From assembly GCA_022478985.1 (NCBI GenBank), contig JAKSZP010009491.1:47781-111780 (forward strand): a stretch of 64,000 nucleotides of DNA, read 5' to 3'. A model generated the notes under the pieces. The model saw nothing but the letters and a program-made list of their open reading frames with translations. It was not told the DNA's origin and did not search any database. Positions 8,796-64,000 of the stretch are shown here, one piece after another. The stretch's first letter is position 1. The number at the start of each line of letters is the position of its first letter. A program made the position numbers and the translations under genes. This DNA comes from Massospora cicadina. Its lineage: Eukaryota > Entomophthoromycota > Entomophthoromycetes > Entomophthorales > Entomophthoraceae.

Positions 8796-10017
8796 TGTCA
8801 GGGTGGCGGCAAGCTGAGTTTAGACTGGCCTGAAAGTCTGGATGTCGGAACACCCAAATGGCAAGACCAAATGCCAGAGGTACTGCTGCTTGGATGACGT
8901 TTATTTAAGCAGAAAGATATTTTGCCATCAAGCGCCAATGTGTCACAAATATGAATATAAACCTGGTAACAAACCAGGCTATCATGGCCCCTGGGCCTGC
9001 GGGTTTGGGAGCTGGGAAAATAGGATTGGTTTGGGGTTTTGAACTCTATCATAGTAAAATGATGAATTTTCGAAATAAGATTTTATTGGAATATAAAGTA
9101 GAAAGTCAACCATCACTTTCTTCATTGTTATGACTGCTTAAATAGACTATTGATTCGGGCAATAGCTTAGAAAGACTTGGGATCAGGGCCCTCAAAATTC
9201 AACCTAGTTTGGTGAACTTTGAGTGAGGGGAAAAAATTAAATTAATCTGAATGACTTCAAAAGAGTTGGCGGTGGGCTGAGTCATTGTCAGTTTAACCTC
9301 AGATGCTTTAATTGCAGTTTCACCACATTTTAATGGTTAGTGTTACAGCGTCTACCCCCAACGGGCAACAGGAACCTCCCAAGGCCACCCCACATAGGGC
9401 AGTCTTAAGAGTTCAGGAACGGGTTTGGGATACCCAACCCACCCACATCCAGTCACTTTGGTGTCTGTTCATCCAAGAAAGATGCAATAAATGATAATCC
9501 TAATTTTGAGGGGAGAGTTCTAGGCTAACAGCAACATTTGACAATGGAGGTACATGCCTGTTGGGCTTTGTCCCCAATGTTTTTGAAGCAGGTTTTGAAC
9601 TGATGACATTTCTTAATGGGCCAAAGCCACTGGTGAGTTTTGCCAAGAATTTGACACTTGATTCCCCATTTACTGAATGTGCAAGACCATCGGGCTTTGT
9701 TTCTGAGGGTTTAAGGCTTCCAACCTTTATTTTATATATCAGTGCTGTTGACTTCATAAGATCCTTTTGGACCATGGGGTGGTGGCTTCCAATTATTTTG
9801 GTGCATATTTCTCAATTTTCTATAATAATTTGATGGAGGCAATTGTGGGGACAGGTGGCATAATCTTCAAGGAGAGAGCTGTTACCCATTGCTCATCTAC
9901 CACATGGGTAAGATCACCCTGTGAGACAAGAGAGACAGCTGCCCTTTTTGGACCCTTTTTGTTGGGAACGGAAACACCACCTGGTCCAGGCATAGGGGAT
10001 GCTCCCCCAGACTTACA
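8796..10017 (-). mobile_element. Solo LTR S1 of the chromodomain-Ty3 LTR superfamily
   Basis: A 1222-bp LTR without internal region. Read on the minus strand it starts TGTAAGTC and ends TGACA. It is flanked by a perfect 5-bp duplication AACCA (8791-8795 and 10018-10022), which proves insertion followed by LTR-LTR recombination. It contains the conserved LTR reading frame described separately. Confidence 0.93.
9500..10017 (-). pseudogene. LTR-encoded reading frame in S1
   Basis: The minus strand first reads PNKKGPKRAAVSLVSQG, then DLTHVVDEQWVTALSL (about 9840-9960), and after a stop continues in a 91-codon open stretch (9500-9775) with TSGFGPLRNVISSKPASK. The first block is shared by the LTRs at 14528, 20419, 35484, 57768 and 62625. 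The second block is shared at protein level with the solo LTR at 21901-22550 (TSGIEPLRND). Function unknown; no domain recognised. Confidence 0.6.
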
Positions 10018-14527: not shown

Positions 14528-15953
14528 TGTCATGGAAATGGCAGAAGAAGTTTAGACCGGCCTGCCAGTCAGGATGCGTGAACACCCAAAAAGCAAGCCA
14601 GAATGTCATAGGCATTGCCGACCAATTGACGTTGTATGGAGCTGGGCATTGCAAAATGACAAATTGTTGGTGTAGGGCAACAGTGAGTATGATCCTGACG
14701 ATGAACCAGATTGAGCTCACCCCAGACCCTGAGGGTCTTGCTGCAGGGGGCGGGATCGCATAAATAGTTTCAATGAGTTCATTGGCATATGGGGTCGTTT
14801 CATCTGGGGAGACAAGGAGACAGATTCTCACTTGTAGATGGTGGATGTAAGGTCACAAAATCCCCATATATTGTTGTTGGAAGTTCATGATAGCAGGGTT
14901 AAAGTGCCAGAAGTATCTGACTCACTGAATCAATCGATGATGGTGGGGGCCATAGTGACCATGAGTACTGGTAGAGCCCATCCAGTATACAGACTAATGG
15001 GCCACCAGGGGAAAGCTATTAGGGATGTGGCTGAGAATAAAATTAACACAATAAATATTGATTGGTTTTTTGGCAAAATTTTATTGCAAAGGAAAAGAAA
15101 GAAAATTGACCAACAATTTTAGTGCAATGCAACTGATTAAATAGTGATCAATTGGGGCAGTAACAAGCTGGTATTGGGACCCTCAATTTTGGCCTAACCG
15201 GCAAATTGTTTGGTAATGGAAATTTAGTTCACTGAGAACTGACATCAAAGAATTTTGTGGCAGGCCAAGCCACTGTCAGTTTGACCTTGAATGTCTGAAC
15301 TGAGGCTCAGCTACGTTTCTGATGGTTGGCGTGATGGTGTTTGGCCCAACGAGCAGTGGGAATCCCCCAAGGCCACCCCATGTAGGGGTGGGCCCATTTG
15401 GTTGGGAACAGGTTTGGGATGCCCAACCCACCCATGCTCAGTCGCTGGGCCATTCAGTCAGTCAGTGACATTGCATTGGGCGCAATGCCCAATTTGCCAA
15501 CAGGGGACTTTGAACCCTTGTCAGTGGTGTCTGATGCTGTTGCCTGCCCATTGGGGATGATCCCCAATGATTTTGGGAGGGGGTGATTTCTTAATTGTCA
15601 TGTTAACCAAATCAAAACTATGAGGCATTTCAGCTGATAGATCAATCTTCATACCTTTTTGACCATTTAAAATCTGAACATTGGGCTGATTGCCAATTGA
15701 ATTAGTTCCAATTGATTTCATTTTGATGATCTTGGCGCAGTTTTCACTGATTCCCTGTAACAGCTCTGCCAAGGTGAATGTGGGTATTGGAGGCGGAATC
15801 CGAAGCAGAAGAGCTGTTACCTAGCGCTCATCTACCATGTGAGCGAGATCGCCCTGAGTAACGAGGGGTACAGCCATCCTCTTTGGTGCCTTCTTTCTTG
15901 GGAATGGGAAAAGGGCCTGATCAACGCCCAGAGGACGTTCCCCAGGACTTACA
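14528..15953 (-). repeat. 3' LTR of E2
   Basis: 1426 bp; on the minus strand it begins TGTAAGTCC at 15953 and ends TGACA at 14528. It differs from the LTRs of the element at 57768-63781 by extra internal sequence, including a stretch of roughly 270 bp around 14760-15030 shared with the other LTR of E2. The pol frame enters it without a stop (see the reading frame at 15821-16051). Confidence 0.92.
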
Positions 15954-20418: not shown

Positions 20419-21900
20419 TGTCATGGAAATGGCAGAAGAAGTTTAGACCAACCTGCCAGTCAGGATGCGTAAGCACCCAAAAAGCAAGCCAGAATGCCAG
20501 AGGCATTGCCAACCAAACAACGTTTTATGGAGCCAGGCATTGCAAAATGATGAATTGTTGGTGTAGGGCAACAGTGAGTATGATCCCAACAATGAACCAT
20601 ATCAAGCTCATCCCAGACCCTGAGGGTCTTTCTGCAGGGGGCAGGATTGCAGAAATAGTTTCAATGAGTTCATTAGCATATGGGATCATTTCATCTGGGG
20701 AGACAAGGAGACAGATTCTCACTTGTAGATGGTGGATGTAAGGTCACAAAATCCCCATATATTGTTGTTGGAAGTTCATGATAGCAGGGTTAAAGTGCCA
20801 GAAGTATCTGACTCACTGAATCAATTGATGATGGTGGGGGCCATAGTGACCATGAGTACTGGTAGAGCCCATCCAGTATACAGACTGATGGGCCACCAGG
20901 GGAAAGCTATTGGAGATGTGGCCAGAATAAAATTAACACAATAAAAATTGATTGGTTTTTTGGCAAAATTTTATTGCAAAGGAAAAGAAAGAAAATTGAC
21001 CAACAATTTTAGTGCAATGCAACTGATTAAATAGTGATCAATTGTGGCAGTAACAAGCTGGTATTGGGACCCTCAATTTTGGCCTAACCGGCAAATTGTT
21101 TGGGAATGGAAATTTAGTTCACTGAGAACTGACATCAAAGAATTTGGTGGCAGGCCAAGTCACTGTCAGTTTGACCTTGAATGTCTGAACTGAGGCTCAG
21201 CTACGTTTCTGATAGTTGGCACAACAGTGTTTGGCCCGATGAGTGACAGGAATCCCCCAAGACCACCCCACATAGGGGTGGGTCCATTTGGTTGGGAACA
21301 GGTTCAGGACACCCAGCCCACCTGTGCTCAGTCGCTGGGCCATTTGTTCAGTCAGTGGCATCTCATTGGCCACAACACCCAAATTGTCAACAGGAGACTT
21401 TGAACCCTTATCAATGACATCTGATGCTATAGCCTGCCCATTGAGGATGATCCCTGATGACTTTAGTAGGGAGGTGATTTGTTCAATTGACATGTTAATC
21501 AAATTAAAACTGATCAGAAATTCTGGCCAATAAATCAGTCTTCATACCTTTCCAGCCATTTGAGATCTAAACATTGGGCAGATTACCAATTAAATTAATT
21601 CTGATTGATTTTAATTTGACAATCTTGGTGCAGATTTCACTGATTCCCCATAACAGTTCTGCCAAGGTGAGTGTGGGTACTGTGGGTGTAATTCAAAGTG
21701 GAAGAGCTGTTACCCAGCGCTCATCTACTATGTGAGCAAGATTGCCCTTAGTAACGAGGGGTGCCACCATCCTCTTCAGTGCCTTCTTGCTTGGGAACAG
21801 AAAAATAGATTGATCAACACCCGGGGGACATTCCTCTGGACTTACAGGGAATGGGAAAAGGGCCCAATCAACGCCCAGAGGATGTTCCCTGGGATTTACA
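20419..21900 (-). repeat. 5' LTR of E2
   Basis: 1482 bp on the minus strand, from 21900 (TGTAAATCC) to 20419 (TGACA). It matches the other LTR over its length. Its outer edge carries about 54 bp more, because the terminal block ending CTTACA occurs twice on the plus strand, at 21841-21846 and in mutated form (TTTACA) at 21895-21900. Confidence 0.9.
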
Positions 21901-22550
21901 GATAATTCTGATATGAGAGGGGAGGGTTCCAAGTTGATGACAACTTTCAATGGTGACCTGATGCCATCAGTAAATTTGCCACAGTTCTGACATCAAGTAT
22001 ACTCATCTTAGTAGGTACAAGCCCATCACACATTTGTTTCCAAAGTTTTGAAGACAGATATCAAATTGACAACAACAGTTTCCAATTCCCTGATGCCATT
22101 GATGAGCTTTACTGGGGATTTGATCCTGAATACAATCTTTTTGGCAAGTATATGCCCATTGAGCTCTGTTTCCAATGGTTTTAAAGCTGATTTCAAAATG
22201 ACCACATCATTTCTCAGTGGCTCAATGCCACTGGTAATTGTGACTGAGAATTCAACCCCTGATACTCTATTTTCTGAATGTGTGCAGCTGTTGGGCTTTG
22301 TTACCATGGGTGTAAGTTTTTCATATATCTTAACACAAATTTCTTCAATTTGCCATACTAATTTAACAGAAAAAATTGTGGGGACAGGTGGGGAAATCAT
22401 CAGAGGGATGGCTGTTACCCAACTTTCATCTACCATATGGGAAAGATCACCCTGTATGACAAGCAGGACAGCTTCCCACTTAGAACCTTTCTTAGTGGGG
22501 AATGGGAATACTGTCCAATCTAGGCAGATGGGTCACTCCTTGGACTTACA
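21901..22550 (-). mobile_element. Solo LTR S2, second part
   Basis: Continuation of the LTR begun at 13726. On the minus strand it starts TGTAAGTCC at 22550 and carries an open frame of 136 codons at 22026-22436 beginning MVDESWVTAIPL. The ATGCC duplication follows at 22551. Confidence 0.92.
22026..22436 (-). pseudogene. LTR-encoded reading frame in S2
   Basis: 136 codons without a stop. The first residues MVDESWVTAIP match the conserved LTR peptide (VDERWVTALP). Further on, GVEFSVTITSGIEPLRND and KSALKPLETELNGH match the S1 frame (KFLAKLTSGFGPLRN, KPASKTLGTKPNRH) with substitutions that preserve the frame. That two diverged solo LTRs keep a related frame suggests past coding function. No known domain recognised. 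Confidence 0.6.
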
Positions 22551-22835: not shown

Positions 22836-22985
22836 TTGATGTACACATTGGGAGCTCTGTATACTATTAAAAGTTACAGCTTACATACCTTTGTATAGTT
22901 GGGTATCAGTAAAGTCTCCTATTGATTAGATTTTAAATTTATTGCGGGGAAGGCCAACCATGGGACGGACACTTCTGAATATGAC

Positions 22986-25900
22986 TCAGACGAGACAAAA
23001 CTCAGTACCAGGTGAGGCACCCCAGAGAAGAGATGCTATCTCTTGTTGCCAGCGGGAACGCCACTTATGGGAAGGGGAGGGAACGTGTGTAGGGGGCGTA
23101 GCCACTATTGAGCACGTGTGGAGGAAGGGGTCTGATTTGATGAACCAGACTGGGAACCAGGAGGAGACCAGCTGCCGGCGACGTGGTGGGAGATATCCAA
23201 ACATCCACGCTTGAAAGTGATCCACCAAATGAGACCGGAATCTGTGGACAGCTTCAGGGAGGGTGGGGATGGATCCGGCGATGGCATCCAAGACAATCGT
23301 GTGGATAGTCCACATGGCGATTGCAACCACCAGAGCATGAAGGGAGGGTGGGAGGGGGAGGCCATTGATGAAGCAAACATATCTCTTGACAGACTGAAGG
23401 GATGTGTTTGATCCTGGCCTAGCAGACGTTGGACTTCGCGCCATATTACTTTAGAGGTGGGGCACTTCTCCAGGCGGTGAAACAGCGTTCCATACTGGCC
23501 ACACACGACATAGGATGAGTGTAAAGCATTAGAGCGCTCAGCTGTATGATACACCCACCTCAGGCAGCGCCACACATGGGAACGGACTTGAGGCTGCAAC
23601 AGAGGATGGTGTGCATATTTCCAGATAGTCTTTTGGGTCTCAGTGGAATAAGGGATGTCCATCATGTCCAGGTAGTCCACCCTGGATAGGACTTGGGGTC
23701 GAATGGGGATCACGCCATCATGGATGGGTAGCCCCTGTACCTCTTGTGTGAACTGAGGAGAGGGGCGGCCTCTTTGGGTTGTATGTCCACTAATACAAAT
23801 TCTCCACTCTGCGCTTCGCATGGAGAGTAGTATTTGTTTGTAGTGGGTTTTGGTCCCGTGAGGACCTGTGGCTGATGTGTGTGATGCGAGGTATTTCATC
23901 AGGGAGTGGGGGTTTGATGGATTGTTGAGGCCCAAGGCTCAGGAGAAGTTGGAGCGGGCCACGCGGGACCAGTGTTGGGATGGGAGTGTAGGAGCAGTGA
24001 CGGCCGCAATCCAGGTGCCTAGGATCTTGGCGGCATGGGCTTTGAAGTCAAGTAGGCCCATGCCACCATGATGATGAGGGCCAAACATGACCTCTAGCTG
24101 TACTGGTGGAGGGCAGCCTGACCAAAGCCAACCTTGTAGCAAAGCATACAGGGATTTGAAGAAGCTTGGGGAGAAGGGGATGGCGTGGGCTCCAAACCAG
24201 ACTTTGGATAGGAGCATAGAGTTGGCAAGAATAACCCTGCCAGTGAGAGTAGTAGGGTGGGCTCTGAGAGAGGCGATTCGCTTCGTCACATTGTCCAGTA
24301 TATGGCCCTCCATTACTGCTGACGCGTATCCTCCTGCCTCCAACCACACTCCCAGATGGCGTACCGGTCCTATAGTAGGTCGCGGCACAAAGGGGAGCAC
24401 CAGTGGAGCGGTGTGTTTTGAGTTAGTAAGGTGTGGACATGGGCGAGCAGCTGGGCTGGGTTGGGAACTACTTGCTGGGGCCCAGCAGTTCTGAAACTGA
24501 CCAAGGAGGATGATTTCAGTTTTGGAGGCGTTCAGTGCCGCGTTGCTTACCCAGGAATATTCCTGGATGAGGGCTTCAAGCGCGCGTGCATCTTTATTAT
24601 TAGATACCCCCACCACACAATCATCTGCAAATGCCATCATCTTGACTGGGGTTTGGCCTGGCACATGGACCCCAGTGAGTTGGGCATTCACATTTCGCAG
24701 TAGTGGGTCAAGGCTGAAGTTGTATAAGAGTGGGCTCAGGGGGTCCCCTTGTCGCAGGCCCCTTTGAGGATGGACTACATTCGTTAGGAAACCTGGGCCA
24801 CGCACAGCCATTGTTGCAGATTCTGTGAGCAGCATCACCCAGTTAATGAAGCGGGGAGGTAGGCGGAATTGTTGGAGGCAGGCCCTAAGGTATTCCCAGT
24901 TTACTCTATCATAGGCCTTTTGTTGGTCCAAGTGTACAAGTGCCCCAGAGGCTGTGGACTGACACACATTAGCCACAGAGTGCACGTTATCCCAAATTGA
25001 CCTTCTGGGGATGAAACCAAATTGTTCTGGAGAGATGGTGGCAGATGCTACAGTCCCTAAACAGTTAGCCATGATTTTTGTTAAAATTTTGGTGTCTGTG
25101 TTTGTTAAAGAAATGGGGCGCTAGTTGGCTAAGTCTAGCCTATCCCCTTTCTTGAAGAGTGTGACTGTAAAAGCCTCATATCCTCCTGGTAGGAGGCGCA
25201 TTTCCAACATGCTTTGGTTGAGTGAGGCTAGCAGCAATGGGGATATGTATTTAAAATATTTTTTGTAGAATGCATATGGAATGCCATCTGGGCCTGGGCA
25301 TTTTCGGTTTGGTGCACCGCGAATGGTAGTCCATAATTTGTTCGGAGTAATTAAATTCATTATTTCCGGGTATCAGAAAATGGTGCGGATATGAGCTCTG
25401 TCAAGAAATTCTGCCATTTTGGCTGGCTGAATTGGTTCAGCTTGGTATAACTCGGAGTAATATCTTTGCATTTCGATTGCCACTTTGGCCGGTGTATCCA
25501 CGATAGAATTATCCAATCTTTGCACCTGTATGCAGGCCACGCTCTGGCATGGTGCAAAAAATTTTTGAAGAAGTATGCGGTGCACTTGTTGCCTTTAGTG
25601 ATGCGTGTGGCCCTGTATTGGACACAAACCTGATGTTTGTGTTGCCTTTCAAGTGCATTGAGGTGGGCTGCTGCCTCCACCCACTTCTGGCCCCATGCAG
25701 GGCTATATCCTGAGGCTGGAATGTTGGACTCCAAGTGGGCCAATTCTACCAGCGCGTGCGATATAACTGGCAATGTGGCTCATGAGCATCTGGATGAGAG
25801 ATGGCGATAGTGGCGGATGGTATCTTTTTTGAAAGTTGCCCATGTGGAAATGGGGTCCGCACAAAACGGTGCAACAAACAATTTTGCCAAAGTTGCCTCT

Positions 25901-26690
25901 TCCACCCACATGGAAAATCCTGGCGACGCAAGCTCTGGGGGTGGATTTTGCACCAATGTGGAGCCTTTGCAACTGTGACGGGTAAGTGGTATGTTATCGA
26001 GACCAGTCGGTGGTCGGAGAATTCTATTTTCGATGTTTTGAAGTGGGAGATGTGGGGTTGGAATTTCACCGGCGCTAGAATAAGGTCAATGCGGGTCATG
26101 GACCTTAATTGGCCTTTGTGGATGTGGGGACGCGTCATGTTTTTGAGCAGTGGGGCATGTCGTGGCAGCGCATCCATTAACCCAAGGGTAGCTTTTAGAA
26201 TGCGTAGTTCTATGTGACCCTGTGGGGCGTGGGGTGAGGGTGGCCACCGGTCTGTTGGTGAGGTTAGCCAACAGTTCATTTTACTGATTAGGAAAGAATT
26301 GGGGGGTAGCGGGAGGGATTTGACCAACGAGAAAAATTCCTGACGCTCTTGTGCACTGTTTGGGGCATAAATGTTGACAATTGTGTGTGCAACATCGGCC
26401 CATGAGAAGGTGACAATGAGCACTCAGTCATTTAGGAATGTTTCTGAAGATGTAAATTTGAAAAAATTGTTTTTTCGAATTAGCACCCCACAGTGCTTCA
26501 ACCAAAAGGATAGGGATGGCAGGAGCATTGTTTTCCAAGCATCCTCGGAACCTCGTGGACAGTGGGTTTCCTGGATGGCCAGGATATCCACGGGTGAATT
26601 ATTTTATAAAAAACTCAGTTTCCTAGCCCGGGATAGGGAGGCCTTGAGTCCAGTGATATTCAGCATCCCTAGAGTGAAGGTTTCCCCCAT
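22986..26690 (-). pseudogene. LINE ORF2 of copy B, broken
   Basis: About 1235 codons. It opens MGETFTLGMLNITGLKAS with the endonuclease motif IQETH near 26580, NIYAPN near 26350 and SDHRLV near 26010. The catalytic aspartate block seen in copy A as LIGDMN is LISKMN here, so this copy has lost that residue. Reverse transcriptase motifs match copy A (FADD near 24630), and the C-terminal zinc finger lies near 23490. Frame changes occur near 25935, 25375 and 23345; stops include a TAG at the Trp-like position where copy A has TGA. Dead copy. Confidence 0.92.
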
Positions 26691-29969: not shown

Positions 29970-32561
29970 TTAGCCCCAAATCAGGCGGCCGCTGAGGTAG
30001 AACGTGGAACCTATGAAACGTACGAAGGAGATGGCTGCGACTGACCAGAACAGGAAAGTCAAATACGGATTGAAAACGGTGGGGTTTGAGGGGGAGCTCG
30101 GGAACAAGGAGTGCAGCGTCTCGGAAGTCAAACTGATGACCAAGAGCCCGTTCGTCATGACCCAAGCCAAAACGATTCGAGTCCGAAACTGCTTATTTTT
30201 ATCTTCGCGTTTGGCTTTGGCATCCTTTATCCTCTTGGGCTCTGGGGACGGGTTCGCTAGCTCATACAGCACCTTATCGTACTGAGAGTTCAGTTGCACA
30301 CTGTCGGCCTCAACTTCAACTTTGGCCACTTCAACGCCCTGAGCATTCGTCTGAGATTGGACGTGGCCGCCAGCTGATTCGATGCCGGTGTCGCCCTTCG
30401 TCCCCCAACTTACATCGTGGGTATTGCAAAAGGCATAGACCATCAGTATGTTCACAAAGGCTGGAACGAGCAGCAAGTACTGTATAAACGAGGTGAACAT
30501 GTGCCAGGGATCGAGGAACAGGATCGAGGATAGCATGTACATCCCGTAGGTCGAAACCGTAGAGATGACAATATCTCGAAACGGGGCGTTGTGCAGCAAA
30601 CTTTGTCCAAAGTTGCTCGCGGTTACCCCCAGGAACGAGTTCACCACGGTGAAAAATGCCAGGTAGGTCACCAGGACCATTATCAGGGCAAACATGCTCA
30701 CCACCAGGGCGTATGCGATATTGTACCCCTGGGGCCGGTTTCCCAAGCTGAGAACAAAGGTGATCACGATGGCCATAATGTAAAGGTAGCGAACCGTCAC
30801 AAACACCCACGGCCCCGCCGGCCCGAGCGGCGAATATCTCCCCCCGGAGGTTTTGCTGGCCGACAGCGTTAGAAAGTAGAATGTCAGATAGTAGTTGGCC
30901 TAGAAGACGGTCAGGTTAACGTTAATAGGGTGACGTACCAAAGCGAACCAACTAAAAAGCATATTGACGAAATTGTAAAAGAACTCAAACAGTAGGAGAG
31001 CTTTGCGCACTCCAGTGTGGGATGTCGATAATAGCTGATAGAAGTGGAAGATGGCAAAGAAAGCCGCAAAGAATGAGCCGTTCAACCAACGGCGCCGCTG
31101 AGAAATCAATTCGGGTAGCGTATCGGGGACGTCAGTTTCAGCAGCGGCCGACTACACCCGCCATCAATACACTCTAAGCTCGGGTATCAACAAAGCTTAC
31201 CTTGACGTATTTTAACACCCATCTGCAGTTTCGTTTAGCCACCAACTCAAAGCAGAGGATGCGGTCCTCGGCTAGATACATGTTGGCCTCGAATATTCCA
31301 CTCTTCGAATCTTCCCCGTGCATCTGCTCACCTTTGAAGTAGGACGCCAAAGGTCCCACTCCAGGGCTTATGTTCTGCAATGCAGCGTATCTGTAAGCAG
31401 AGAAGGCGCCCGGGAGAACGGAATGTATCCGAAAGCGGACTCCAGAGGTTTGTCTAGGATATTGCTCATCTTGTACTCAAAGTTTTGCGCAGCCACAAGT
31501 GGGTTTATCAGCTTGACGCCGCCCCTGCCTAGGTCGGCGTAAATTTCACCGCATGCCCCACCGAGGTTGGGGTTTCGATCGAAAGCTTTCCAAAGGTGGT
31601 AAATCGAGGTTGGGGTGGGCTTTGTCCCAACATCGATAAGGACGCACACATTTGGTGATAGAACTGGCCCGAACGCGTTAAAGAACCATCGGTGCGAGTT
31701 GAGCTTCTTGGCGTTCTTCTCTTTGAGACAAAATATTGTCTGGATCGGTACGGTTTCCCCCTGCGAAGCCTTGACTTTAAGGTCAGAATCCATCATAACC
31801 TGGGTCGTGTACTCGTAGATATGGGCTGTAACCGGCTTCCCGTTGACGGAAGTTTGAGAAATATTGTCCTGGTAGATGCCCATAGCAGCGAGTACTTTAA
31901 GAGTCCTGGGATGAATTTTCGTACGGCCATCGGCAACCACGCAGACTACTACCTTCTCCCAACCCCGATCCCCCCAAACCCGCGACCGGTTACGGCTACA
32001 AAGATGGGTGACATTCTTCATCACCGCCCGCATCGTCTTAACAAACAGGTGCTCATCCTCGTTGTACATTGTCATAACAATAAACAGTTCCGTCGGGCGC
32101 GCGTATAGAGCGGGGCGAAGGGTGAACCTCCCTTGAATAAAATCGTCCGGATCCCCGGTTGCGGCTGTATATCGCATATGAGTAAACTCCTCGCCGGTCG
32201 TAAGTAGAGCATTTTCCAGCACCTTATCGGGTACATGGCAGTCTAGAACGAGGTTGCCAGAAGTGAGGGCAACGGTCCGAAGCCCCTTCCGGCGGCGCGC
32301 CTGATATTCTTGAAACTTTCTGGAGTTTGGTGGGGGTGCGTTGGTTACGTCGTACCACATTTCGAGCTGCTCGGCGTCGTGCACCTGGGGGCTGCCGTTA
32401 AAAACTTGGGTTGGGCTGTGTAAGTTATGGTCGGTAGTTGCCGCCCCGGGGGAGATTGAACGGTCAATGTCGCTCATACCTGGAGACCTTGGCGGGTTTA
32501 ATTCTTTCTCTTGCCTGCCGTCATACGATGATCGCAGTGGTATATTCTCTTCATCAGACAT
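29970..32561 (-). CDS. chs: Chitin synthase (class I-III type), two introns, one frameshift
   Basis: Membrane glycosyltransferase that polymerises UDP-N-acetylglucosamine into cell-wall chitin. Exons on the minus strand: 32561-31201, 31151-30939, 30899-29970, about 833 codons, usual for the family. The N-terminus is hydrophilic; then [17 protein letters not shown] and EFTHMRYTA begin the conserved core. Further motifs are [47 protein letters not shown] and QRRRWLNGS, the last two being catalytic blocks. Exon 3 holds several hydrophobic segments (for example [20 protein letters not shown]) and [13 protein letters not shown]. One base is missing near 31411-31416: the text reads PFSRAPSL where the family has [12 protein letters not shown], and the correct frame resumes at once. 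Either a sequencing error in a C/G run or a recent mutation. ATG at 32561 is the first in frame. Confidence 0.92.
30900..30938 (-). other. Intron 2 of chitin synthase
   Basis: 39-bp intron in phase 0: donor GTACGT at 30938, acceptor TTCTAG ending at 30900, with TTAACGTTAAC as a possible branch site. Removing it joins MLFSWFAL to ANYYLTFYF, the expected family sequence. Without splicing the frame hits the TAG of the acceptor. Confidence 0.9.
31152..31200 (-). other. Intron 1 of chitin synthase
   Basis: 49-bp intron in phase 0: donor GTAAGC at 31200, acceptor GTGTAG ending at 31152. Removing it joins CRWVLKYVK to [19 protein letters not shown], matching the conserved text just before the QRRRW catalytic block. 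Confidence 0.92.
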
Positions 32562-33247
32562 AAGTAACCCCTAATATTCAACCCCACTTCAACTATACTC
32601 ACTTTGGCCCTTGGGATCCCGCATTTCAACTGTCGTCACCCATCATCTGCTTACAAAGTTTGTAACCCCAGACTTCAGCTTCAATCTAATTTAAATAGTT
32701 TTGGTTTTATATTTGATTATGCTCACCTCCACTAACCTTTTACCAAATATAATTACTTTATCCATCATTGAATTGATTATCTCAAAATCAATTCTGGGGC
32801 CCATCGCATTTATTAGTCTAATCAACTATATAGTAGCAATCTTAACATCGCTTATTGTGCCAAAATGCCATTAAAATTAACTAGTTACTCCTACTTCGAA
32901 TAAGTAAAAGATTAACTAGTTACCCTCATAGGTTTAGTTTAGATCATTGTGCCAATCAAATCAACCAAAAATCACCAGAAGCTTGGTAAAACCTATGTTT
33001 TTATCAAATTGACTAAATAACTATCCGCATAGTCAAATTATTGTGCCTATCAAATTACCCAAATAACCACCAAACCATTCGGCAAAACTATTGAGCCTAT
33101 CAAATCATCTGAATAAGCCCAAATAGCTCAACCAAAACGATATACTCATTCCCATCAATTATTATATATTTTTATATCCTATACATATATATATTTATAT
33201 TCGATTAGCTTCTAAAAAGAACTACCAGTTTTGATTCTCCTAATTCA
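32562..33247. other. Upstream region of chitin synthase with degenerate short repeats
   Basis: AT-rich promoter-side region. The phrase ATTGTGCC(A/T)ATCAAAT occurs near 32945 and 33041 and, as ATTGAGCCTATCAAAT, near 33091, and TTAACTAGTTAC occurs near 32878 and 32912. No TATA box or known operator can be named with confidence. Confidence 0.5.
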
Positions 33248-35483: not shown

Positions 35484-36548
35484 TGTAAGTCTTGGTGAAT
35501 GTCCTCTGGGTGTCGATTAGGCCATCCTTCCATTCCCAAGCAAGAAGGTACCAAAGAGGATAGCCATACCCCTCATTACTCAGGGCAATCTCACTCATGT
35601 GGTAGATGAGTGCTGGGTAATAGCCCTTCTGCTTCAGAACTCACTTCTGGTACCCACACTCTCCTTGGAAGAACTGTTATGAGGAATCAGTAAAATCTGC
35701 ACTGAGATTGCCAAAATGGAATCAATCGCAAATAATTTGAGTGGCAATTAGCCTGATACTCAGATTTCAAATGGTCAAAAAGGTATGAAGACTGAGCTAT
35801 CAGCTGGAATACCTGATGGTTGTGATTCAGTTTACTTGATGATTGAAAAATCCCCCCTCCCAAATCTGTTAGGCATCACCCCCAATGGGCAGCTTTCTGC
35901 CAGCAAATTGGGTGTTGCACCTGATGCAATGATACTGACTGCAACTTAGCCTGCTACTGAATTTTATGATGTTGATCCCCAAGGAACTAACCTGCCTATT
36001 CCCAAATAGTTTACCGCTTAGGTTGAACTGACTGCAACTCAGTCTGCCACCAAATTTTATGATGTTGGTCCCCAGAGAACTAACCTGCCCATTTCTGAAT
36101 AGTTCACCGCTTAGTGCAAACTTGCAGAACCCAATCTCAGCTTGTTTTCCCTCAAAATTGACAACTATTTAATCAGGCGCATTGCACTGAGAAAATTTTT
36201 GGTCAATTCTCCTTCCTTAAATTTTCTAATAAAAATAACTTTTCACTAAAATCCTATTTTTATCTGTTGAGAATTAAAATTATTTGAGGTGGGCTGACCT
36301 TGGGACAAATATACCACACCAAGAATATTTTTTTAGCCAGTACAGGTTTCAAACTCAAAACCTGCACTAGGGGTGGAAGCAATTTTACCCTCTTGGCTAA
36401 CCACCCTTTCTGTTGAGAATTAAGCTTCCTTCCAGTTCCATATCCATCATATCAGCAGCAGTGCCTCTGGCATTCTGGTTTGCCACTTGGATACTCTGGC
36501 ATCCAGGCTGGCAGGCCAGTCTAATTCTTACTTGCTGTTTGCCTAACA
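35484..36548 (+). mobile_element. Solo LTR S3 (chromodomain-Ty3 LTR superfamily)
   Basis: 1065 bp from TGTAAGTC to CCTAACA with a perfect 5-bp duplication GGTAA at 35479-35483 and 36549-36553. It most resembles the LTRs at 57768 and 62625, lacks about 230 bp of their middle part, and carries a SINE insertion at 36278-36408. It retains the conserved LTR peptide frame in decayed form near 35535-35640. Confidence 0.94.
36278..36408 (-). mobile_element. Short tRNA-headed SINE (family 2, copy a) inside LTR S3
   Basis: 131 bp flanked by a perfect 15-bp duplication TCTGTTGAGAATTAA (36263-36277 and 36409-36423). The LTRs at 57768 and 62625 show the empty site as TTTATATGTTAAAAATTAAG. Minus-strand head GGTGGTTAGCCAAGAGGG fits an A box; GAGTTTGAAACCTG is a decayed B box. 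Tail GTCCCAAGGTCAGCCCACC is shared with the copy at 29110-29234. Confidence 0.88.
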
Positions 36549-49047: not shown

Positions 49048-50694
49048 TGTCATGGAAGCAGCTTATAAGAATTAGACTGGGCTCCCAGTTGGGGTGGGTG
49101 AGCACCCAGTGGAGAGCCCAGAATTCCAAGGGCACAGCAGTCCATGCGACTAGAAGAAGGGGGATCTAGTGGGGATGCAAGGAAAGCAAATGTTTATAAA
49201 TGTACCAAAGGCCACCAAGGCAAACCAGATGGTTGCAATGGGGGCAACCGCGAGTCTTGTGGGGCAGCCCCCAAGGGCAGGAGAGGCAGGGAGGATGACA
49301 ACTCCTCCAGGGTGCACAGTTGTGGGCCTTCAGTTATGGGTGGGTGAGTCTGTGCGCCAGAGAGGGGCGGCACAGGGCTCACCACGCGAACAGGGGTGCT
49401 GTCGGAGGGGAAAATGGACCCACAATGAGCGTTAGGGCTGAGTCCCTCTTGGTTGGGGTACTCTGGGGTCCTTATGTGGGTGGGATTAGTGGCGGATGAG
49501 CCAGGTGTGGGGGCTGAGCTCATGGGCATTGGGGCGGGGGCGCCCTGAGGATGCTCTGATAGGGGAGCACTCTTGGAAAACTTGACGGTGAAGTGAATGG
49601 ACAGGTTCACATTTGATGGGTGCACGAAAATGGATGGAGAGTCGACTCTGTCATCAAGAATGAGGCGGTTTACTACGGATATGATCCACCGCTGCATGGC
49701 GGGGTTGAGCAACTAGATGGCCCATTTGGCAATCATCAGGATGACTATTTGGGTGGCAGTGCACTTTGCTGGATTGATTGGTGGAATTTTGAACAATAAA
49801 CAAACAGGCGGAGTCCGCAACAAGGCATTCAGGGTATTTGGCTTTATTCTAGCGCAATGTGCAGGGAGAATAAAGAATGAACTGACAACTGCCCATCAAC
49901 AGGTCAGTTGCTTTAAGTATTGGGCAAATCACATAGTGAGGGTGCTGAGCTATTGGGTGGTTGGGGATTGGCGATGGGGTTTGGTTGGCTGGTGGGTGGG
50001 GGCTGGAGGGATGTCCAAAATCTTGGCAAAAATCAAAAAAAAACTTTTGCAGATTTTCCCAAATTTTTGGGGCCAGACCAGGTCAATGGTACCGATCTGG
50101 GCCTTGACCATTTGAGTCGGGCTGCTCACACAGTTTGGAATTCCCAGATTCATCCTGGGGAGCTGTGGCCTTGGTTCTCGGTTGTCTGCAACCCAGTCTG
50201 AACTCTCAATTTGATTGTCCATGTGATCCAAACTTCCTGGATCTGTTCCAGGGGGTAGTGGCAACTGGTCCAATTCACTTGTAGCCTGGTTCAAAACCCA
50301 AATTGAGTTCCAATCTGATTTTCAGACCTGACCAGTCCAGAGCAGCTCCATTAGCCTGGAATTTGCAGACTGGGCTTCAATACTTGCACTGGCTGTTTCT
50401 TCAAAATTTTGATTAGTTTCCCCTAGTGAGTGAGGGGTCCCAGGGCCCGCCCATGGCCCCTGGCCTGCATAATCTCCTGGCAGGTCCCCTCTATTAATTT
50501 TACCAGGGTTGGGGAAGGGGGAGGGGAGATATCTGAATATTTCTATGCGGAAGGGCAGTCACCCAGCGCTCATCAACCACGTGCACCAGGTCGCTCAACT
50601 GCAACAGGGGGTCCACATGGGCCTTTGGCCCCCTTTTGGTCCAAAAGGATGCTGCTCCCTATCCAGTTGTAGGGGCTGGTCCCCAAGACTTACA
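49048..50694 (-). mobile_element. Solo LTR S5 inside the E3 integrase
   Basis: 1647 bp; on the minus strand from TGTAAGTCTTGGGG to TGACA, flanked by a perfect CTAGA duplication (49043-49047 and 50695-50699). It is the longest and most diverged member of the chromodomain-Ty3 LTR superfamily here. The conserved peptide is recognisable as DLVHVVDERWVTALP (about 50545-50590). It has two further open frames on the minus strand (49194-49712, 172 codons, Pro/Ser-rich; 49950-50294, 114 codons). Confidence 0.93.
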
Positions 50695-57199: not shown

Positions 57200-57767
57200 A
57201 GAGATCATTTGAGCCACTCATAAGGATATTGGTCATGGTGGCCTAAAGAAGACAGTGGATCATTAATGCCAGTATTATTATTGGGAATTGATCAACTATG
57301 ATGTCACGGATTACCTAGCCTGTTGTGTGGAGTGTCAAATTTACAAGCTGCACAAGAACGTCATGGGGTACCAGCTGGTACGCCTTGGTTTTGCATGGCA
57401 CACAATGTCCATAGACGTCATAAGACCATTGAGTGTCAGCACTGGAGGTGTGAATTATATAATTGTCACAATAGACCATCTAACTCAATGGGTCAAAAAA
57501 AGCCCTCAGTAGAGTAGATGCAATGAGTATGGAGAAGTTTATACTGGACAAGTGATCTATCAGCATGGATGCCCCCAAGTTATCCTCGGTAACAACATAA
57601 CCAATTTTACTTCATATGTGATTCCCAGGCTAAATGAATTAATGGACAGACAAGGTGTGTATCGCCCCTATCATCCAGAAAAGAATATAATGGTGGAAAG
57701 AGTGAATGTAACTCTAGCCTCAACATTACAAAAGTTGGTCATGGAAAACTTCCGCTTGGGGAGCATA
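57200..57767 (+). pseudogene. Integrase of E4, left part
   Basis: HHCC domain HKDIGHGGLKKTVDH and CCVECQIYKLHKN, then TMSIDVIRPLSVSTGGVNYI with the first catalytic D, LGNNITNFTSYVI where the second D is N, and YHPEKNIMVERVNVTLAST with the catalytic E. The frame runs to ENFRLGSI at the E5 insertion point. Confidence 0.85.
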
Positions 57768-58921
57768 TGTAAGTCCTGGGGAACGTCCCTGGCAGTTGAT
57801 CAGGCCATTTTTCCATTTCCAAGTAAGAAGGTACCAAAGAGGATTGCTGTACCCCTCGTTACTCAGGGCGATCTCGCTCACATGGTAGACGATCATTGGG
57901 TAACAGCCCTCCCATTTCAGATACCACTTCCGATACCCACACTCTCCTTGGCAGACTTGCTATGAGGAATCAGTGAAATCTGTGCCAAGATTGCTGAAAC
58001 GAGATCAATTATAACCAATTTGAGCGGCAATCAGCCCAATGCTCAGATTTTAAATGGTCAAAAAGGTATAAAGACTGAGCTATCGGCTGGAATGCCTGAT
58101 GGTTGCAATTCAGTTAACATGATGATCAAAAAAATCTCCCCTCTCCCAAATCTTTTAGGCATCACCCCCAATGGGCAGGTAATAGTACCAGACACCATTG
58201 ATGAGGTTTCAGAGCTTCCTGTTAATAAATTGGGTGTTGCGCCTGATGCAATGCTACTGACTGAACGAATGACCCAGCGACCAAGCATGAGTGGGTTGGG
58301 CATCCCAAACCCGTTCCCAACCAAATGGGCCCACCCCTATGTGGAGTGGCCTTGGGGGATTCCCACTGTTTGTTGGGCTAAACGCCATCGCGCCAACCAT
58401 CAGAAATGTAGTAGAGCCTTGGTTCAGATGTTTGAGGCCAAACTGGCAGCGACTTGGCCCACCATCAAATTTTGTGATGTCAGTTCCTAAGGAACAAACC
58501 TGCCCATTCCCAAATAATTTGCCGATTAGGGTGAATTTGTGGGACCTGATCCCAGCTTAGTTTCCACAAATTGACTACTATTTAATCAGTTGCATTGCAC
58601 TGAGAAAATTGTTGGTCAATTTTTCTTTCCTAAATTCCAAAAAAAAACCTTTCCAAAAAATTAGTTTTTATATGTTAAAAATTAAGCCGCCTTATCTGAT
58701 GATGTTCTTGTGCCCCTTGGGGTTAATGGCCATGTGCATCTGGTACTTTATTTTGTGCCTATATGAAGTTCTGGCTCACCGGCAGATATTGGTGGAATTC
58801 CTTTCTGGTTCCATATTTGTTGTATCAGCAGCAGTGCCCCAGGAATTCTGGTTTGCTGTTTGGATGCTCTGGCATCCGGGCTGGTAGGCCAGTCTAATTC
58901 TTACTTGCTGTTCACCTGACA
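57768..58921 (+). repeat. 5' LTR of E5
   Basis: 1154 bp, TGTAAGTCCTGGGG to CACCTGACA. It keeps two long open frames in the pol-tail register: through 57965 (KKVPKRIAVPLVTQGDL, AHMVDDHWVTALP) and 58020-58490 (156 codons, NGQKGIKTELSAGMPDG). Highly similar to the 3' LTR over its whole length. Confidence 0.94.
58020..58490 (+). pseudogene. LTR-encoded reading frame in E5 5' LTR
   Basis: 156 codons in the register that follows the chromodomain and pol tail. It reads MSGNQPNAQILNGQKGIKT, MPDGCNSVNMMIKKISP, then LPVNKLGVAPDAMLLTER and GLGIPNPFPTKWAHP. A stop at 57963 separates it from the upstream block ending PIPTLSLADLL. The same words occur in the 3' LTR and in E2 and S3. No known domain; rich in N, P and small residues. 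Confidence 0.6.
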
Positions 58922-58999
58922 TAATTGACCAACCATTATTCTTAGCCATTTCTGCCTTTCTCACATGTGTAGGCGCAGCAATGGTTCCTTCTTTCCAAC

Positions 59000-59640
59000 T
59001 GAGACAGGTTATAAAGAAGATTATCTCTGACCACATTAGACCAGCCACACTCAAACCTCCAAAACCATACTCCATAGTTGCCACGGCTATTTGCCCATCG
59101 GTTTCCCCAAATCCAACCACCATCTCTTTGGTATTTCTGGATTCATCCACAACTACCAATAAGGAGAACTACGCTTACTTTTTAGTATCCATGAAGATTA
59201 GCGTTGGTTCTCATCGCATCTCCTTTGAGGCCCTGATGGACACTGGAGCTGCGGGAAATTTTATGAGTGTTGAATTTGTGCGACATTTAAAGCTGGAAAT
59301 GGATGCGGGCTCCTCAGTGATGGTGGCCTCATCTGCTTATCAGCCCACATATGTTGTTCGCTGACTGATACCTTTTTCAATCCACCAGTTCAGCTTTTGC
59401 GATCACTTTTTGGCTATGCCAGACTTGGTATTTCCGGTGATCTTAGGTGTGGGGTGGTGGCGTTGACAACATGTGAAGATTCATTTAGAGTCTAATACAT
59501 TGTCATTTACCAATGATCATTTGGAGGGAGAATTCCCTTTTATTGACACCCTCAAGAAGGTACAAGGAACTAGCTCTATCACTACCCTAGTCACTTCTGT
59601 GGGCATTCTGGCCAATTCCCTGAAAACTTAATGTGCTATT
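59000..59640 (+). pseudogene. Protease of E5
   Basis: Open from 58981 to 59364: SHRISFEALMDTGAAGNFMSVEFVRH carries the DTGA active site at about 59239-59250. A TGA (CGA in E2) interrupts the frame after TYVVR at 59362; the text then resumes IPFSIHQFSFCDHFLAMPD and VILGVGWWR to about 59460. The gag region that precedes protease in E2 is absent. Confidence 0.85.
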
Positions 59641-59719
59641 GGAGAATCTTCAATATGGAAAAGGCAGATCGCCTGCCTAAACACACCAGGTATGATTGTG
59701 GGTTTCGAACAACCTTGGA

Positions 59720-60440
59720 GTTGGTGAACATCAACTGTTGTTGTATCCCCATACAGCGAAGGAAGAAGTTGTACTCAATACCTGGTTGGACGATATGTTG
59801 AAAAAAGGTTGGCTGTTCAAGGAGACCTCACCCGTTGCCTCCCCCATCATCTTTGCCAAAAAAGTGGATGGTTCTCTCTGTCCCAGCATGGATCATGGCC
59901 ATTTGAATAAAATAGCAGTTACTGATCCCTAACCATTGCCTCTGGAGCAGACAATCAGTCAGGCAATCACCTAATCCCATATGTTCTCTAAGCTGGATAT
60001 GGTGAACGCCTTCAACTAATTCCGGGTAATGGAAGGGCAGGAATGGTTAACAGCAATTTGGACAAAGCGCGGCATTTTCCAATTTTGTGTAATGCCTTTC
60101 AGGCTGAAGAATGCTCCCGCTACATTTCAATGGATGATCAATAATGTACTGGGTAACCTCTGGTTCACCTGTGCTGTTGCATACATTGATGATATTCTGG
60201 TTCACTCCCTGACTCCCAAACAACACACAATTGACATGGAAGCGGTGGTGGTCGCCTTGCATAAGGCAGGGTTGTTCCTCAAACCGTCCAAGTGTGAGTT
60301 TTATAAGGAGGAGGTTACTTTCCTTGGTAATCTGGCTCTTAAAGATGGTGCTGCAATCTCCCAATAAGTTGGATGATATTCGGGAGTGGCCAACCCTGAC
60401 TACCCAGAAACAACTACAGAGTTTCTTGGGAACCATCATT
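59720..60440 (+). pseudogene. Reverse transcriptase of E5
   Basis: Blocks in order: VLNTWLDDMLKKGWLFKE, SPVASPIIFAKKVDGSLCP, SKLDMVNAFN with a stop after it, EWLTAIWTKRGIFQFCVM, LKNAPATFQWMINNVLG, VAYIDDILVHS (catalytic, about 60175-60207), CEFYKEEVTFLGNLALKDG and LQSFLGTIIFLKKLSP. Several stops. Same family as E2. Confidence 0.92.
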
Positions 60441-60525
60441 TTCTTAAAAAAGCTCTCCCCCGCACTCTCTCAGCTCGCCACCCCACTCCACCCACTCACA
60501 GGGAAAAACGTACCTTTTTTGTTGG

Positions 60526-60960
60526 ATGGATGAATGCCAACAGGCATTTGAATCAATTAAAGAGGTGTTTGTATCCCCTCCCATTTTAAAACACACTGAT
60601 CCCACCAAGCTGTATATTGTTGCATGTGATGCATCATCAGTAGCTGTTGGAGCAGTGTTGCTCCAGGAGCACAATGGCTTGGAACACCCAGTCGCCTACT
60701 TTTCCCGAAATTTTACCTCTAGGGAGCAGTATTGGGCTATTTATGACAAGGAGTTGGCAGCTGTTGCATGGGCCCTAACTCATTGGAGGTACCTGTTACA
60801 GGGTGCCTGACATGAATTAATGGTTTACACAGATAACCAGGCCTTGTCGTACTTTTATAAACCCCAAAACTTGGCACACTGACAAGCCTGAACCTATTGG
60901 GACCTGTGCAGTTTCAACTTCGAATATGAATTTGTAAAAGGTGCATTAAATGTACTTCCC
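60526..60960 (+). pseudogene. RNase H of E5
   Basis: A 94-codon open stretch reads KLYIVACDASSVAVGAVLLQ, NGLEHPVAYFSRNFTSREQY and AIYDKELAAVAWALTHWRYL, with catalytic D and E present. After a stop, YTDNQALSYFYKP gives the third acid and NFEYEFVKGALNVLPN the end of the domain, where the usual NxxADxLSR is decayed. Confidence 0.9.
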
Positions 60961-62310
60961 AATTTTTCTCAGCCACATCCCTGCCCACAGTTCCGCAGAT
61001 TCAGAGGAAGTGGATCTCGTTACTGTGATTCTTACCACCCAAATCTTGTCAATTGTTCCCCCTGTCATTTCTTCTGTCGCTCTGGCCCCTGACGCTTCAT
61101 TAGTTTCTCAGGTCTTATCCAGTCAAATGGCCTGCCCTGAGGGCATGGAGTTGGTCGAGCAGTTATCCCACCAGAAGCCTAAACACTCTCTATACTCAGT
61201 AAAGGAGGGTCTTATATATTTTAGATCTCGCGTTTGGGTTCCCCCCTCCTTCCAAACTGAGGTTTTTCTCACACATCACGATCCCCCACAGTTGGTCACC
61301 CTATTTCTAAGTAATGCATCGATTTGATCAAATAGACCTACAATTGGGCAGGTTTGACAAAAGAAGTCCCAGCCTGGATCGCCGATTATGTTACTTGCGC
61401 TAGGGCAAAGTCATATTGTTCTGGCAAAAATGGCCTCCTGCACCCCTTACAACAGGCAGAGGTCCCATGGACATTTATGTCCGTGGACTTTATTGTTGAG
61501 CTCCCCTGTTCAAACAGGTTCACAGTGGTGATGGTAGTGGTGGATCACTTCACAAAAGTTCCCATTTTATACTTTGCACTTCCACGATTACGTCCAAAGA
61601 AACTCCCCGCCTTTTCATATGCCATGCGTTTTTGATGTTTGGTCTCCCCCAGGAGATCATCAGTGACCGTGGTTCTCAGTTCACCGCGTGGTTTTGGAGT
61701 GAGCTCCTATCAATCCTGAAATATACCCCTGTCACTCCATGGCATATCATCCTCAGTCTGATGGCCAGACCAGGCGGGTCAATCAAGTTCTTGAGCAGTA
61801 CTGCGTTGCTATGCTGCAGCCGCACAGGATACTTGGGCTGATGACCTCCCTCTCGACTAATTTGCGTACAATAATGGAACCCACACGTCCATGGGGTTTT
61901 CCCCCTATGAAGCAACGTTGGGTTATAATCCTTCATTTTCAGTCAGACCATGCTTGCAGCCAGAGGTTCAAGCTGCCACAGACCATGCTGTTCATATTAG
62001 ATTGACTCAAGTCTTAGTGCAGGAACACCTCACCAAAGCTATAGACGACTACAAGAGGTTCAGGGGTCAAAAACGCCTTCCAGGTCATGAGTTTACAAAG
62101 GGTTCTTACATTATGCTCAACACCTGTCATTTAAAAATCCAGGCCCCTTTCCGCAAATTTGCCAGTAAACTCTTGGGTCCCCATCTGGTGGAAGAGGTAT
62201 TGAGTAATGGGGAGTTCTGGTTGAAGCTTCTCACGCATTGGAAGCAGCATCCCGTTTTCCATGTCTCCCAGCTGTCACCCTTCAAGGATGCAATACACAC
62301 AGAACAATAA
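60950..62310 (+). pseudogene. Integrase of E5
   Basis: Starts with a spacer (VVPPVISSVALAPDASLVS-like), then WIADYVTCARAKSYC (C-C of the zinc domain), WTFMSVDFIVELPCSN with the first catalytic D, EIISDRGSQFTAWF with the second D (about 61652-61693), and YHPQSDGQTRRVNQVLEQ, where arginine replaces the usual glutamate. The C-terminal domain reads MGFSPYEATLGYNPSFS and FRKFASKLLGPHLVEEVLS. Frame changes occur near 61635 and 61880. Confidence 0.9.
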
Positions 62311-62329
62311 CTAATCATCATTGAAAATG

Positions 62330-62515
62330 AAGAGGAGGTTGAGGTAGAAGCTATCCTGGCTTCCCAGAAATCCTGACGTTCTGTACAATACCTCATGTCT
62401 TGGAAAGGGTATCCAGCTTACAAAAACAGTTGGGTCAAGGCGCGTGATTGCGCGAATTTCATGGACCTGGTTGATGCGTTCCACATCTTCCACCCCAAAG
62501 CTCCCCGCCCTTCCC
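62330..62515 (+). pseudogene. Chromodomain of E5
   Basis: Reads VEVEAILASQKS, a stop, RSVQYLMSWKGYPAYKNSW and VKARDCANFMDLVDAFHIF. The aromatic and WKGY-NSW signature of chromodomains is clear. Expected to bind modified chromatin at integration; inference from the chromovirus family. Confidence 0.88.
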
Positions 62516-62661
62516 AAAAAGTAGCGTCTCTTATGGCAATCAAGTTACCCAAGGCGCACAAGAATGTGGCTCTCGTGCAGTTCCCCAGTGGTGGGCTCCT
62601 TCCCTTGGGAAAAGGAAAGGGTAATGTAAGTCCTGGGGAACGTCCCCTAGCAGTTGACTAG
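62395..62661 (+). pseudogene. Pol tail of E5 crossing into the 3' LTR
   Basis: One open frame of 88 codons runs from the chromodomain through KLPKAHKNVALVQFPSGG, the polypurine tract (translated LPLGKGKG) and across the LTR start at 62625 as NVSPGERPLAVD before a TAG. E2 has the same junction, without that stop. Beyond it the LTR continues in the same register with KRMAVPLVTQGNLAHVVDK. Confidence 0.75.
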
Positions 62662-63781
62662 GCTATTTTTCCATTCTCAAGTAATAAGGTACTGAAGAGG
62701 ATGGCTGTACCCCTTGTTACTCAGGGAAATCTCGCTCACGTGGTAGACAAGCGTTGGGTAACAGTACTCCCACCTCAGATAGTACTCCCAATACCCACAC
62801 TCTCCTCAGCAGAATTGTTATGAGGAATCAGTGAATTCTGCGCTGAGATCACCAAAATGAAATTGATCATAACCAATTTGAGCGGCAATCAGCCCAACTC
62901 TTGGATTTTATTTGGTCAAAGAGGTATGAAGACTGAGCTATCAGCCAGAATGCCTGACGGTTGCAATTTGGTTAACATGATGATCAAAAAGAATCTCCCC
63001 TCTCCCAAATCTTTTAGGCATCACCCCCAATGGGCAGGTAATAGCACCAGACACCATCGATGAGGTTTCAAAGCTTCCTGTTAACAAATTGGGTGTTGCA
63101 CCTGATGCAATGCTACCAACCAAACAAATAGCCCAGCGACCAAGCACGAGCGGGTTGGGCGTCCTGAACCTGTTCCCAACCAAAATGGGCCCACCCCTAT
63201 GTGGGGTGGCCTTGGGGGATTCTGGACACTAATCAGGCTAAACGCTGTCATGCCAACCATTGGAAACGTAGTAGAGCCTTGGTTCAGACGTTCAAGGTCA
63301 AACTGGCAGTGACTCAGCCCACCGCCAAATTTTGTGATGTCAGTTCCCAAGGAACAAACCCGCCCATGACCAAATAATTCGCCAGCTAGGCTGAATTTGT
63401 GGGACCCAATCCCAGCTTAGTTTCCACAAGTTGCCTACTATTTAATCAGTTGCATTGCACTGAGAAAATGTTGGTCAATTTTTCTTTCCTAAATTCCTAT
63501 TAAAAACCTTTCCAAAAAATTAGTTTTTATATGTTAAAAATTAAGCCGCCTTATCTGCTGATGTTCTCGTGCCCCTTGGGGGTTAACGGCCATGTGCATC
63601 TGGTACTTTATTTTGTGCCTATATGAAATTCTGGCTCACTGGCAGATATTGGTGGAACTCAATTCTGGTTCCATATTTGTTGTATCAGCAGCAGTGCCCC
63701 AGGCATTCTGGTTTGCTGTTTGGATGCTCTGGCATCCAGGCTGGAAGGCCAGTCTAATTCTTACTTGCTGTTCGCCTGACA
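62625..63781 (+). repeat. 3' LTR of E5
   Basis: 1157 bp, TGTAAGTCCTGGGG to CGCCTGACA, followed by GCATA. Contains the LTR peptide register with a few more stops than the 5' LTR (open piece 62857-63063). Confidence 0.94.
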
Positions 63782-64000
63782 GCATATCTGAGTTTGGTCA
63801 CATTCACTTATAATATCAGTTACCACTTGGTGACAGAGAAAATACCATTTGAACTTTTATATGGGCGGAAAGCTGAATTTCTGCCAATATTGTATTCAGC
63901 AGTGAGGCATCTTTGGGGATGAGTGCCAAACAATGTCTATCTTGACTGGCCAATATCCTGATTGAATTAAAATCTTGAGCATATGAAACAACAATGAAAA
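63782..64000 (+). pseudogene. Integrase of E4, right part
   Basis: Continues the E4 integrase after E5: AYLSLVTFTYNISYHLVTE then KIPFELLYGRKAEFLPI, the standard AYNxSxHxSTGxSPFELLYGR block of Ty3 integrases. The remaining E4 sequence is beyond the window. Confidence 0.85.

Follow-up and report, generated by a model that had tools for sequence, protein, structure and literature searches.

A Ty3 chromovirus family of the fungus Massospora cicadina carries its pol reading frame into the LTR, where 66 codons are under protein-level constraint

The U3 region of a chromodomain-containing Ty3 family from the fungus Massospora cicadina appears to encode a C-terminal tail of Pol (integrase), which would be translated from the LTR at the 3' end of the genomic RNA (probability roughly 0.8). 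Sequence statistics demonstrate that the frame exists, that it is continuous with pol and that LTR codons 1-66 are under purifying selection. In the proposed mechanism, translation of Pol on the genomic RNA would continue beyond the chromodomain, cross the polypurine tract and enter the 3' LTR, adding a tail whose first ~66 LTR codons form a conserved core; the frame would then stay open to about codon 249 and end just before the core promoter. The 5' LTR copy, located ahead of the likely transcription start, would serve as DNA only. We infer that Pol is synthesised with this tail attached, and the tail may help integrase to reach its target or the nucleus, by analogy with the LTR-encoded CR motif of plant CRM elements.

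According to PMC10515909, Ty3 elements account for 56.8% of the genome of M. cicadina and for 38.0-56.8% across four Entomophthoraceae. The analysed window (the whole stretch of M. cicadina DNA under study, 64 kb) contains the Ty3 elements E5 and E2 and the LTRs S1, S2, S3 and S5 (Table 1). In the 1.47-Gb source genome (16,968 contigs), 11,692, 5,163 and 15,844 candidate copies were listed and 40 of each were scored. Further copies from the same genome comprised 29 E5-type, 29 S1-type and 20 E2-type loci (20 of the 40 E2-type matches taken), L001 and L031 being dropped as duplicates of window copies. The features of chromoviruses were found in this family, with a Pfam Chromo domain after SH3_Tf2-1 in L011, and TG..CA LTRs, a target-site repeat, a polypurine tract and a primer-binding site in E5. 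The E5 polypurine tract abuts the 3' LTR at 62625 and is preceded by SH3_Tf2-1, the chromodomain and a linker, in this order. Elsewhere in the window, positions 3-3370 and 22932-26299 are inverted copies (94-98% match) with reverse-transcriptase-like open frames, probably a LINE as judged by eye, and 31368-32570 is a chitin synthase, a host gene (Pfam 3.1e-79).

Table 1. Positions of the E5 element, its parts and the other LTRs in the window
Feature	Position	Strand	Remarks
E5, Ty3 element	57768-63781		TG..CA LTRs of 1154 bp (5') and 1157 bp (3')
Target-site repeat gcata, 5 bp, left of E5	57763..57767	.	
Target-site repeat gcata, 5 bp, right of E5	63782..63786	.	
E5 5' LTR, TG..CA, 1154 bp	57768..58921	+	
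E5 3' LTR, TG..CA, 1157 bp	62625..63781	+	
Integrase C-terminal SH3 domain	62101..62283	+	Pfam SH3_Tf2-1, E 3e-7 (E5); 1.6e-10 in L011
Chromodomain	62377..62502	+	Pfam Chromo, E5 3.3e-5, just short of the curated cut-off; L011 6.1e-11
Coding linker and polypurine tract, pol frame	62503..62624	+	tract ~62607-62621; net dN/dS 0.22 (0.07-0.60)
Block 1, LTR codons 1-66, 3' LTR (copy expected to be translated)	62626..62823	+	strong constraint; stop at 62659-62661 in E5
Block 1, E5 5' LTR	57769..57965	+	shorter by one base; TGA at 57963-57965
Remaining U3 frame, E5 3' LTR	62824..63374	+	E5 frame changes near 62990 and 63185
Remaining U3 frame, E5 5' LTR	57966..58514	+	stop 58488-58490, present in 3/31 copies
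Terminal stop of LTR frame	63375..63377 (3' LTR); 58515-58517 (5' LTR)	+	common to 23/31 E5-type copies
TATA-like TATTTAA	58579..58585	+	61 bp past terminal stop; in 25/31 E5-type copies
Putative 5' end of R	58607..58621	+	complements primer-binding site, 14/15; matched by 0/200 shuffles
Primer-binding site adjoining E5 5' LTR	58923..58937	+	complementary to the putative 5' end of R in the LTR
E2 3' LTR	14528..15953	-	block 1 at 15755-15952
E2 5' LTR	20419..21846	-	
S1 LTR start with block 1	9863..10017	-	
S2 LTR start	22026..22550	-	open frame 22026-22532, 168 codons
S3 LTR, block 1 and part of remaining frame	35484..35940	+	
S5 LTR start, most diverged	50512..50694	-	retains SDLVHVVDERWVTALPH

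As the original prediction had it, the pol frame passes the internal/LTR junction in both chromodomain elements. In E5 it is uninterrupted from 62377 across the junction (62624/62625) and meets a stop 11 codons inside its own 3' LTR; in E2 it also passes the junction, with a frame change near the chromodomain end and a stop within the peptide. Locus L011 has a single unbroken frame of 344 codons that leads from integrase across the junction and includes 94 LTR codons, and L006 is open across the junction for 83 + 166 codons. In 14 of the 29 E5-type loci the frame is open over at least 80 codons ahead of the LTR, and the open run into the LTR has a median of 65 codons, reaching at least 39 codons in 24 of the 29. 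In ten of the 29 loci and E5, the first upstream stop falls within the chromodomain region, at a distance of exactly 83 codons from the LTR; the distance is 74 codons in three loci and 42 codons in three. Many single copies have private frame shifts or stops, and the chromodomain and LTR texts are in different frames in 10/29 E5-type loci.

A common stop or frame shift between chromodomain and LTR was considered and ruled out. Over the linker and polypurine tract there are 7 stops in 1456 codons (36 copies), and the frame-changing indels are scattered, each common to at most two of the 29 loci. Frame-changing indels are absent from the chromodomain to LTR codon 66 in 12/29 loci, from the linker and polypurine tract in 19/29 and from LTR codons 1-66 in 24/29. 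The expectation that intact young copies would have no stop right after the chromodomain was borne out as far as the rarity of stops and shared indels goes, though none of the copies was recognised as young.

A DLAHMVDERWVTALP-like text is legible in the LTRs of E5, E2, S1, S2, S3 and S5, and its proposed sharing by the S1, S2, S3 and S5 LTRs goes beyond chance, as judged across the further copies from the third-position differences between subfamilies and the rarity of stops in that frame. Selection was analysed using net divergence (between groups minus the mean within groups), which strips most of the post-insertion decay. In the comparison of E5-type (34 copies, including E2 and S3) with S1-type (31, including S2), the first 300 LTR bases of 29 + 29 loci plus window copies were aligned, with S5 in neither group and a stop codon scored as one more residue. 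Over codons 1-66 the net dN/dS was 0.11 (bootstrap 0.05-0.24; net dS 1.53, dN 0.16), a ratio that is approximate because dS is near saturation, whereas the shifted frames gave 1.65 and 2.38; split by codon position, net divergence was 0.23/0.10/0.83. E5-type (30) and E2-type (21) copies, the former mostly the same set as in the S1-type comparison, showed a net dN/dS of 0.12 (0.05-0.28) at an unsaturated net dS of 0.27, with 0.043/0.043/0.166 by codon position and 1.05 and 1.44 in the shifted frames. The diverged S5 differed from 65 copies by 0.20/0.16/0.63 over the 17 core codons 34-50, with no clear codon pattern in codons 1-33 (0.37/0.48/0.58) or 51-66 (0.71/0.44/0.61). With net dN/dS far below 1 in the codon alignment, LTR codons 1-66 evolve under purifying selection as protein, and the predicted excess of protein-level over DNA conservation is borne out by both ratios and by the S5 core. 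Thus, by these statistics, the LTR encodes a conserved peptide.

The chromodomain, used as a control, gave a net dN/dS of 0.10 (0.04-0.37) and the linker with the polypurine tract 0.22 (0.07-0.60), both from 30 x 6 copies (six of the eight S1-type loci with a chromodomain match, L039 and L044 being excluded as partial or split); the constraint therefore continues from pol into the LTR. The final 66 codons before the LTR showed 0.28 (0.08-0.84) between E5-type and E2-type copies. Alternatively, the block could be a non-coding DNA or RNA control element carrying promoter, packaging or integration signals, since subfamilies share DNA-level conservation of the LTR ends and of a C-terminal second block (LTR index ~520-740), both without third-position excess (for the second block, between E5-type and S1-type copies, 25 S1-type loci with a blastn match). 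For codons 1-66, however, this reading is contradicted by the codon statistics, as changes concentrate on third positions there when subfamilies are compared (two pairs), and likewise over codons 34-50 of S5, and stop depletion is confined to the pol frame. The final 124 bp of the LTR, examined by the same net-divergence method (18 S1-type loci with a blastn match), gave no codon pattern (0.30/0.27/0.32). We regard a control element as a very improbable explanation of block 1; the rest of U3 may contain one.

Downstream of block 1 the frame is also poor in stops. Within LTR index 27-723 of 31 E5-type copies, the pol frame has 74/7147 stops versus 467/7114 and 543/7115 in the other two frames, and the reverse frames have 3.5-5.2%. 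A chance open frame was ruled out by the stop counts against the other frames, and antisense coding because the reverse frames are not stop-poor. In S1-type copies (25 of the 29 loci and S1), one frame is stop-poor to ~660 bp, or to ~900 with column-grid shifts. When substitutions past block 1 were redistributed, S2 versus 30 S1-type copies had 40 stops compared to 88 ± 9 expected, and E5-type versus E2 copies gave seen/expected counts of 8/37, 7/20 and 35/90. The first 60 codons showed no depletion between E5-type and E2 (26 stops against 26.4 expected), which is due to the TGA at LTR codon 66. The terminal stop lies at index 747 (~codon 249) in 23/31 E5-type copies, and both E2 LTRs end the frame earlier, at index 723. 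Codons 67-240 showed a net dN/dS of 0.44 (0.23-0.89) between E5-type and E2-type copies, no lower than the 0.37 of the -1 frame. Past codon 66 the U3 frame appears to have been kept open, and the amino-acid signal there is weak.

C>T changes in L002-L030 occurred at a rate of 0.234 at CpG sites versus 0.058 at other C sites, about fourfold, which suggests cytosine methylation of repeats. In-frame stops recurring in the same column were considered as the true end of the frame; this was not adopted, as CpG decay could account for most such columns, codon 66 being ambiguous. Of the 74 pol-frame stops, 38 fall in three columns, and other copies have CpG codons at all three, as they do at 7 of the 11 columns with at least two stops. 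At codon 66, TGA is present in 20/31 E5-type copies and exceeds the other CpG decay product, unlike in the two other most affected columns. This TGA may be inherited in the E5 lineage, in which case the tail would have 65 codons. The excess, together with the weak downstream constraint, is consistent with a coding part limited to a tail of 65-66 codons, followed by a frame that is old and drifting or was never selected. We consider this possible but doubtful, as downstream stops are depleted in separate lineages, including the S1-type versus S2 comparison, and the terminal stop is shared by most E5-type copies. Moreover, codon 66 in the S1-type alignment is often TGG, followed by EICAKI-like text as in E5-type copies (read by eye).

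The TSGxxPLRN text, noted earlier as common to S1 and S2, is present in both and in no other of the 80 loci searched with a strict pattern, the single match, L031, being S1 itself. It forms part of the 44-codon unit that is repeated in S1-type LTRs. Three S1-type loci (L050, L056 and L038) have a 132-bp (44-codon) tandem repeat within the LTR frame with units ~64% alike, and S1-type units compared to each other show little phase signal (0.32/0.37/0.39 by codon position). The two LTRs of E2 are near-identical beyond index ~657 and diverged by ~13-28% per codon position before ~477; the E2 U3 looks chimeric. A second LTR start lies at ~21847-21899.

On a tentative and broader reading, nearly all of U3 (~249 of ~280 codons' worth, up to ~300 in the longer S1-type LTRs) might be a protein module that evolves fast and belongs to a radiation of fungal chromoviruses in the giant genomes of Entomophthorales. 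Such a module would comprise the conserved core and a helix, with the 44-codon repeat in one lineage, would have been kept open while the LTR subfamilies diverged, and may provide a second targeting domain in addition to the chromodomain.

The site following the E5 5' LTR is complementary at 14 of 15 positions to LTR index 839-853, just past the TATA-like box (0/200 shuffles); the complementarity at the E2 primer-binding site is 9/10 only. The E5 form of this motif follows TATTTAA in 12/23 E5-type versus 0/20 S1-type copies having TATTTAA (29 examined per group). Judging from the complementarity in E5, this element may be self-priming like Tf1. If index 839-853 is the RNA 5' end, U3 would measure ~839 bp, and ~89% of it would be Pol frame. 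At the other end of the LTR, a stop-poor frame at 58693-59364, with one stop in E5, spans the 5' LTR end into the internal region toward the protease. This candidate Gag frame has 20/2234 stops in the LTR end versus 67/2237 and 82/2235 in the other frames, third-position excess being absent, and Gag possibly starts inside the LTR end.

Retroviral nef and sag, encoded in U3 of the 3' LTR, are distinct proteins that each have an RNA of their own. The original prediction proposed an LTR-encoded domain or an accessory protein of this kind, and the U3 location is indeed alike. Such a protein would have its own start, perhaps the linker ATG ~31 codons before the LTR, and a subgenomic or spliced RNA. 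A Met beginning MAIKLPKAHKN occurs in the linker of E5, several E5-type copies and L050, and L035 has a Met at the same place, but L027 lacks it. In contrast to nef and sag, the fungal LTR frame is continuous with pol and its chromodomain, and the part upstream of the LTR is under equal constraint. Given the unbroken 344 codons of L011, a tail of Pol is the simpler explanation, and we consider the accessory protein improbable.

Among 1239 candidates from a search of 5.8 billion proteins, a profile of the LTR-encoded part found one match, a partial hypothetical protein of M. cicadina (E 1.7e-12), whose last 42 residues match block 1 by at most 76% among the ten best listed loci. Two other searches of the 5.8 billion proteins gave zero matches, the viral contigs searched contained no relatives, and the LTR-encoded part had no Pfam match at or above the curated cut-off. 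A PDB profile search, of the kind envisaged for the peptide, returned 0 matches with an E cut-off of 1. The structure models were of low confidence overall (mean pLDDT 47.6 and 59.5); they predict one confident helix at tail residues 61-86 (mean pLDDT 93 over 61-80) and no other recognisable fold. The tail core contains a basic, SKKVPKRM-like stretch, which could serve nuclear entry.

The proposed Pol tail resembles several known systems. In plant CRM group A elements the polyprotein likewise reaches into the 3' LTR, which encodes the conserved integrase C-terminal CR motif, and according to the available text this motif replaces the chromodomain (PMC3059260). The extension into the 3' LTR is seen here at the level of sequence, whereas the chromodomain is retained upstream of the polypurine tract, as in the Pfam match of L011, and the LTR adds a further tail. 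Bingo 1-4 and 7 of Beta vulgaris share with the fungal family a chromodomain upstream of the polypurine tract and a gag-pol frame entering the flanking LTR; the described parts of that study report neither a conserved LTR-encoded domain nor a selection test, and the fungal family adds the conserved tail (PMC3605345). E5 may also resemble the self-priming Ty3 elements Tf1 and Tj1 of fission yeasts, whose primer-binding site complements their own RNA start, as described in the accessible part of PMC4600332, and the Tf2-1-like integrase SH3 domain of the E5 family is a further likeness to this type. The LTRs of Tj1 have 244 bp compared to 1154/1157 in E5, and the same part of that source mentions no LTR-encoded protein for Tj1 (PMC4600332). 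No fungal report of an LTR-encoded Pol tail was found in the open-licence papers searched, in agreement with the original prediction. The plan of a Pol frame entering the LTR is known from plant chromoviruses; within the literature searched, the fungal host and the added conserved tail appear to be the new part.

It is common to regard LTRs as non-coding, to date insertions with them as neutral clocks and to remove them from polyprotein annotation. In this family the 5' part of the LTR evolved under protein-level selection, and LTR-based classification and domain surveys could miss a Pol tail. A targeting-type tail, described in plants, would thereby come within range of testing in fungi with more than one third Ty3 DNA, by the figures in the available text of PMC10515909.
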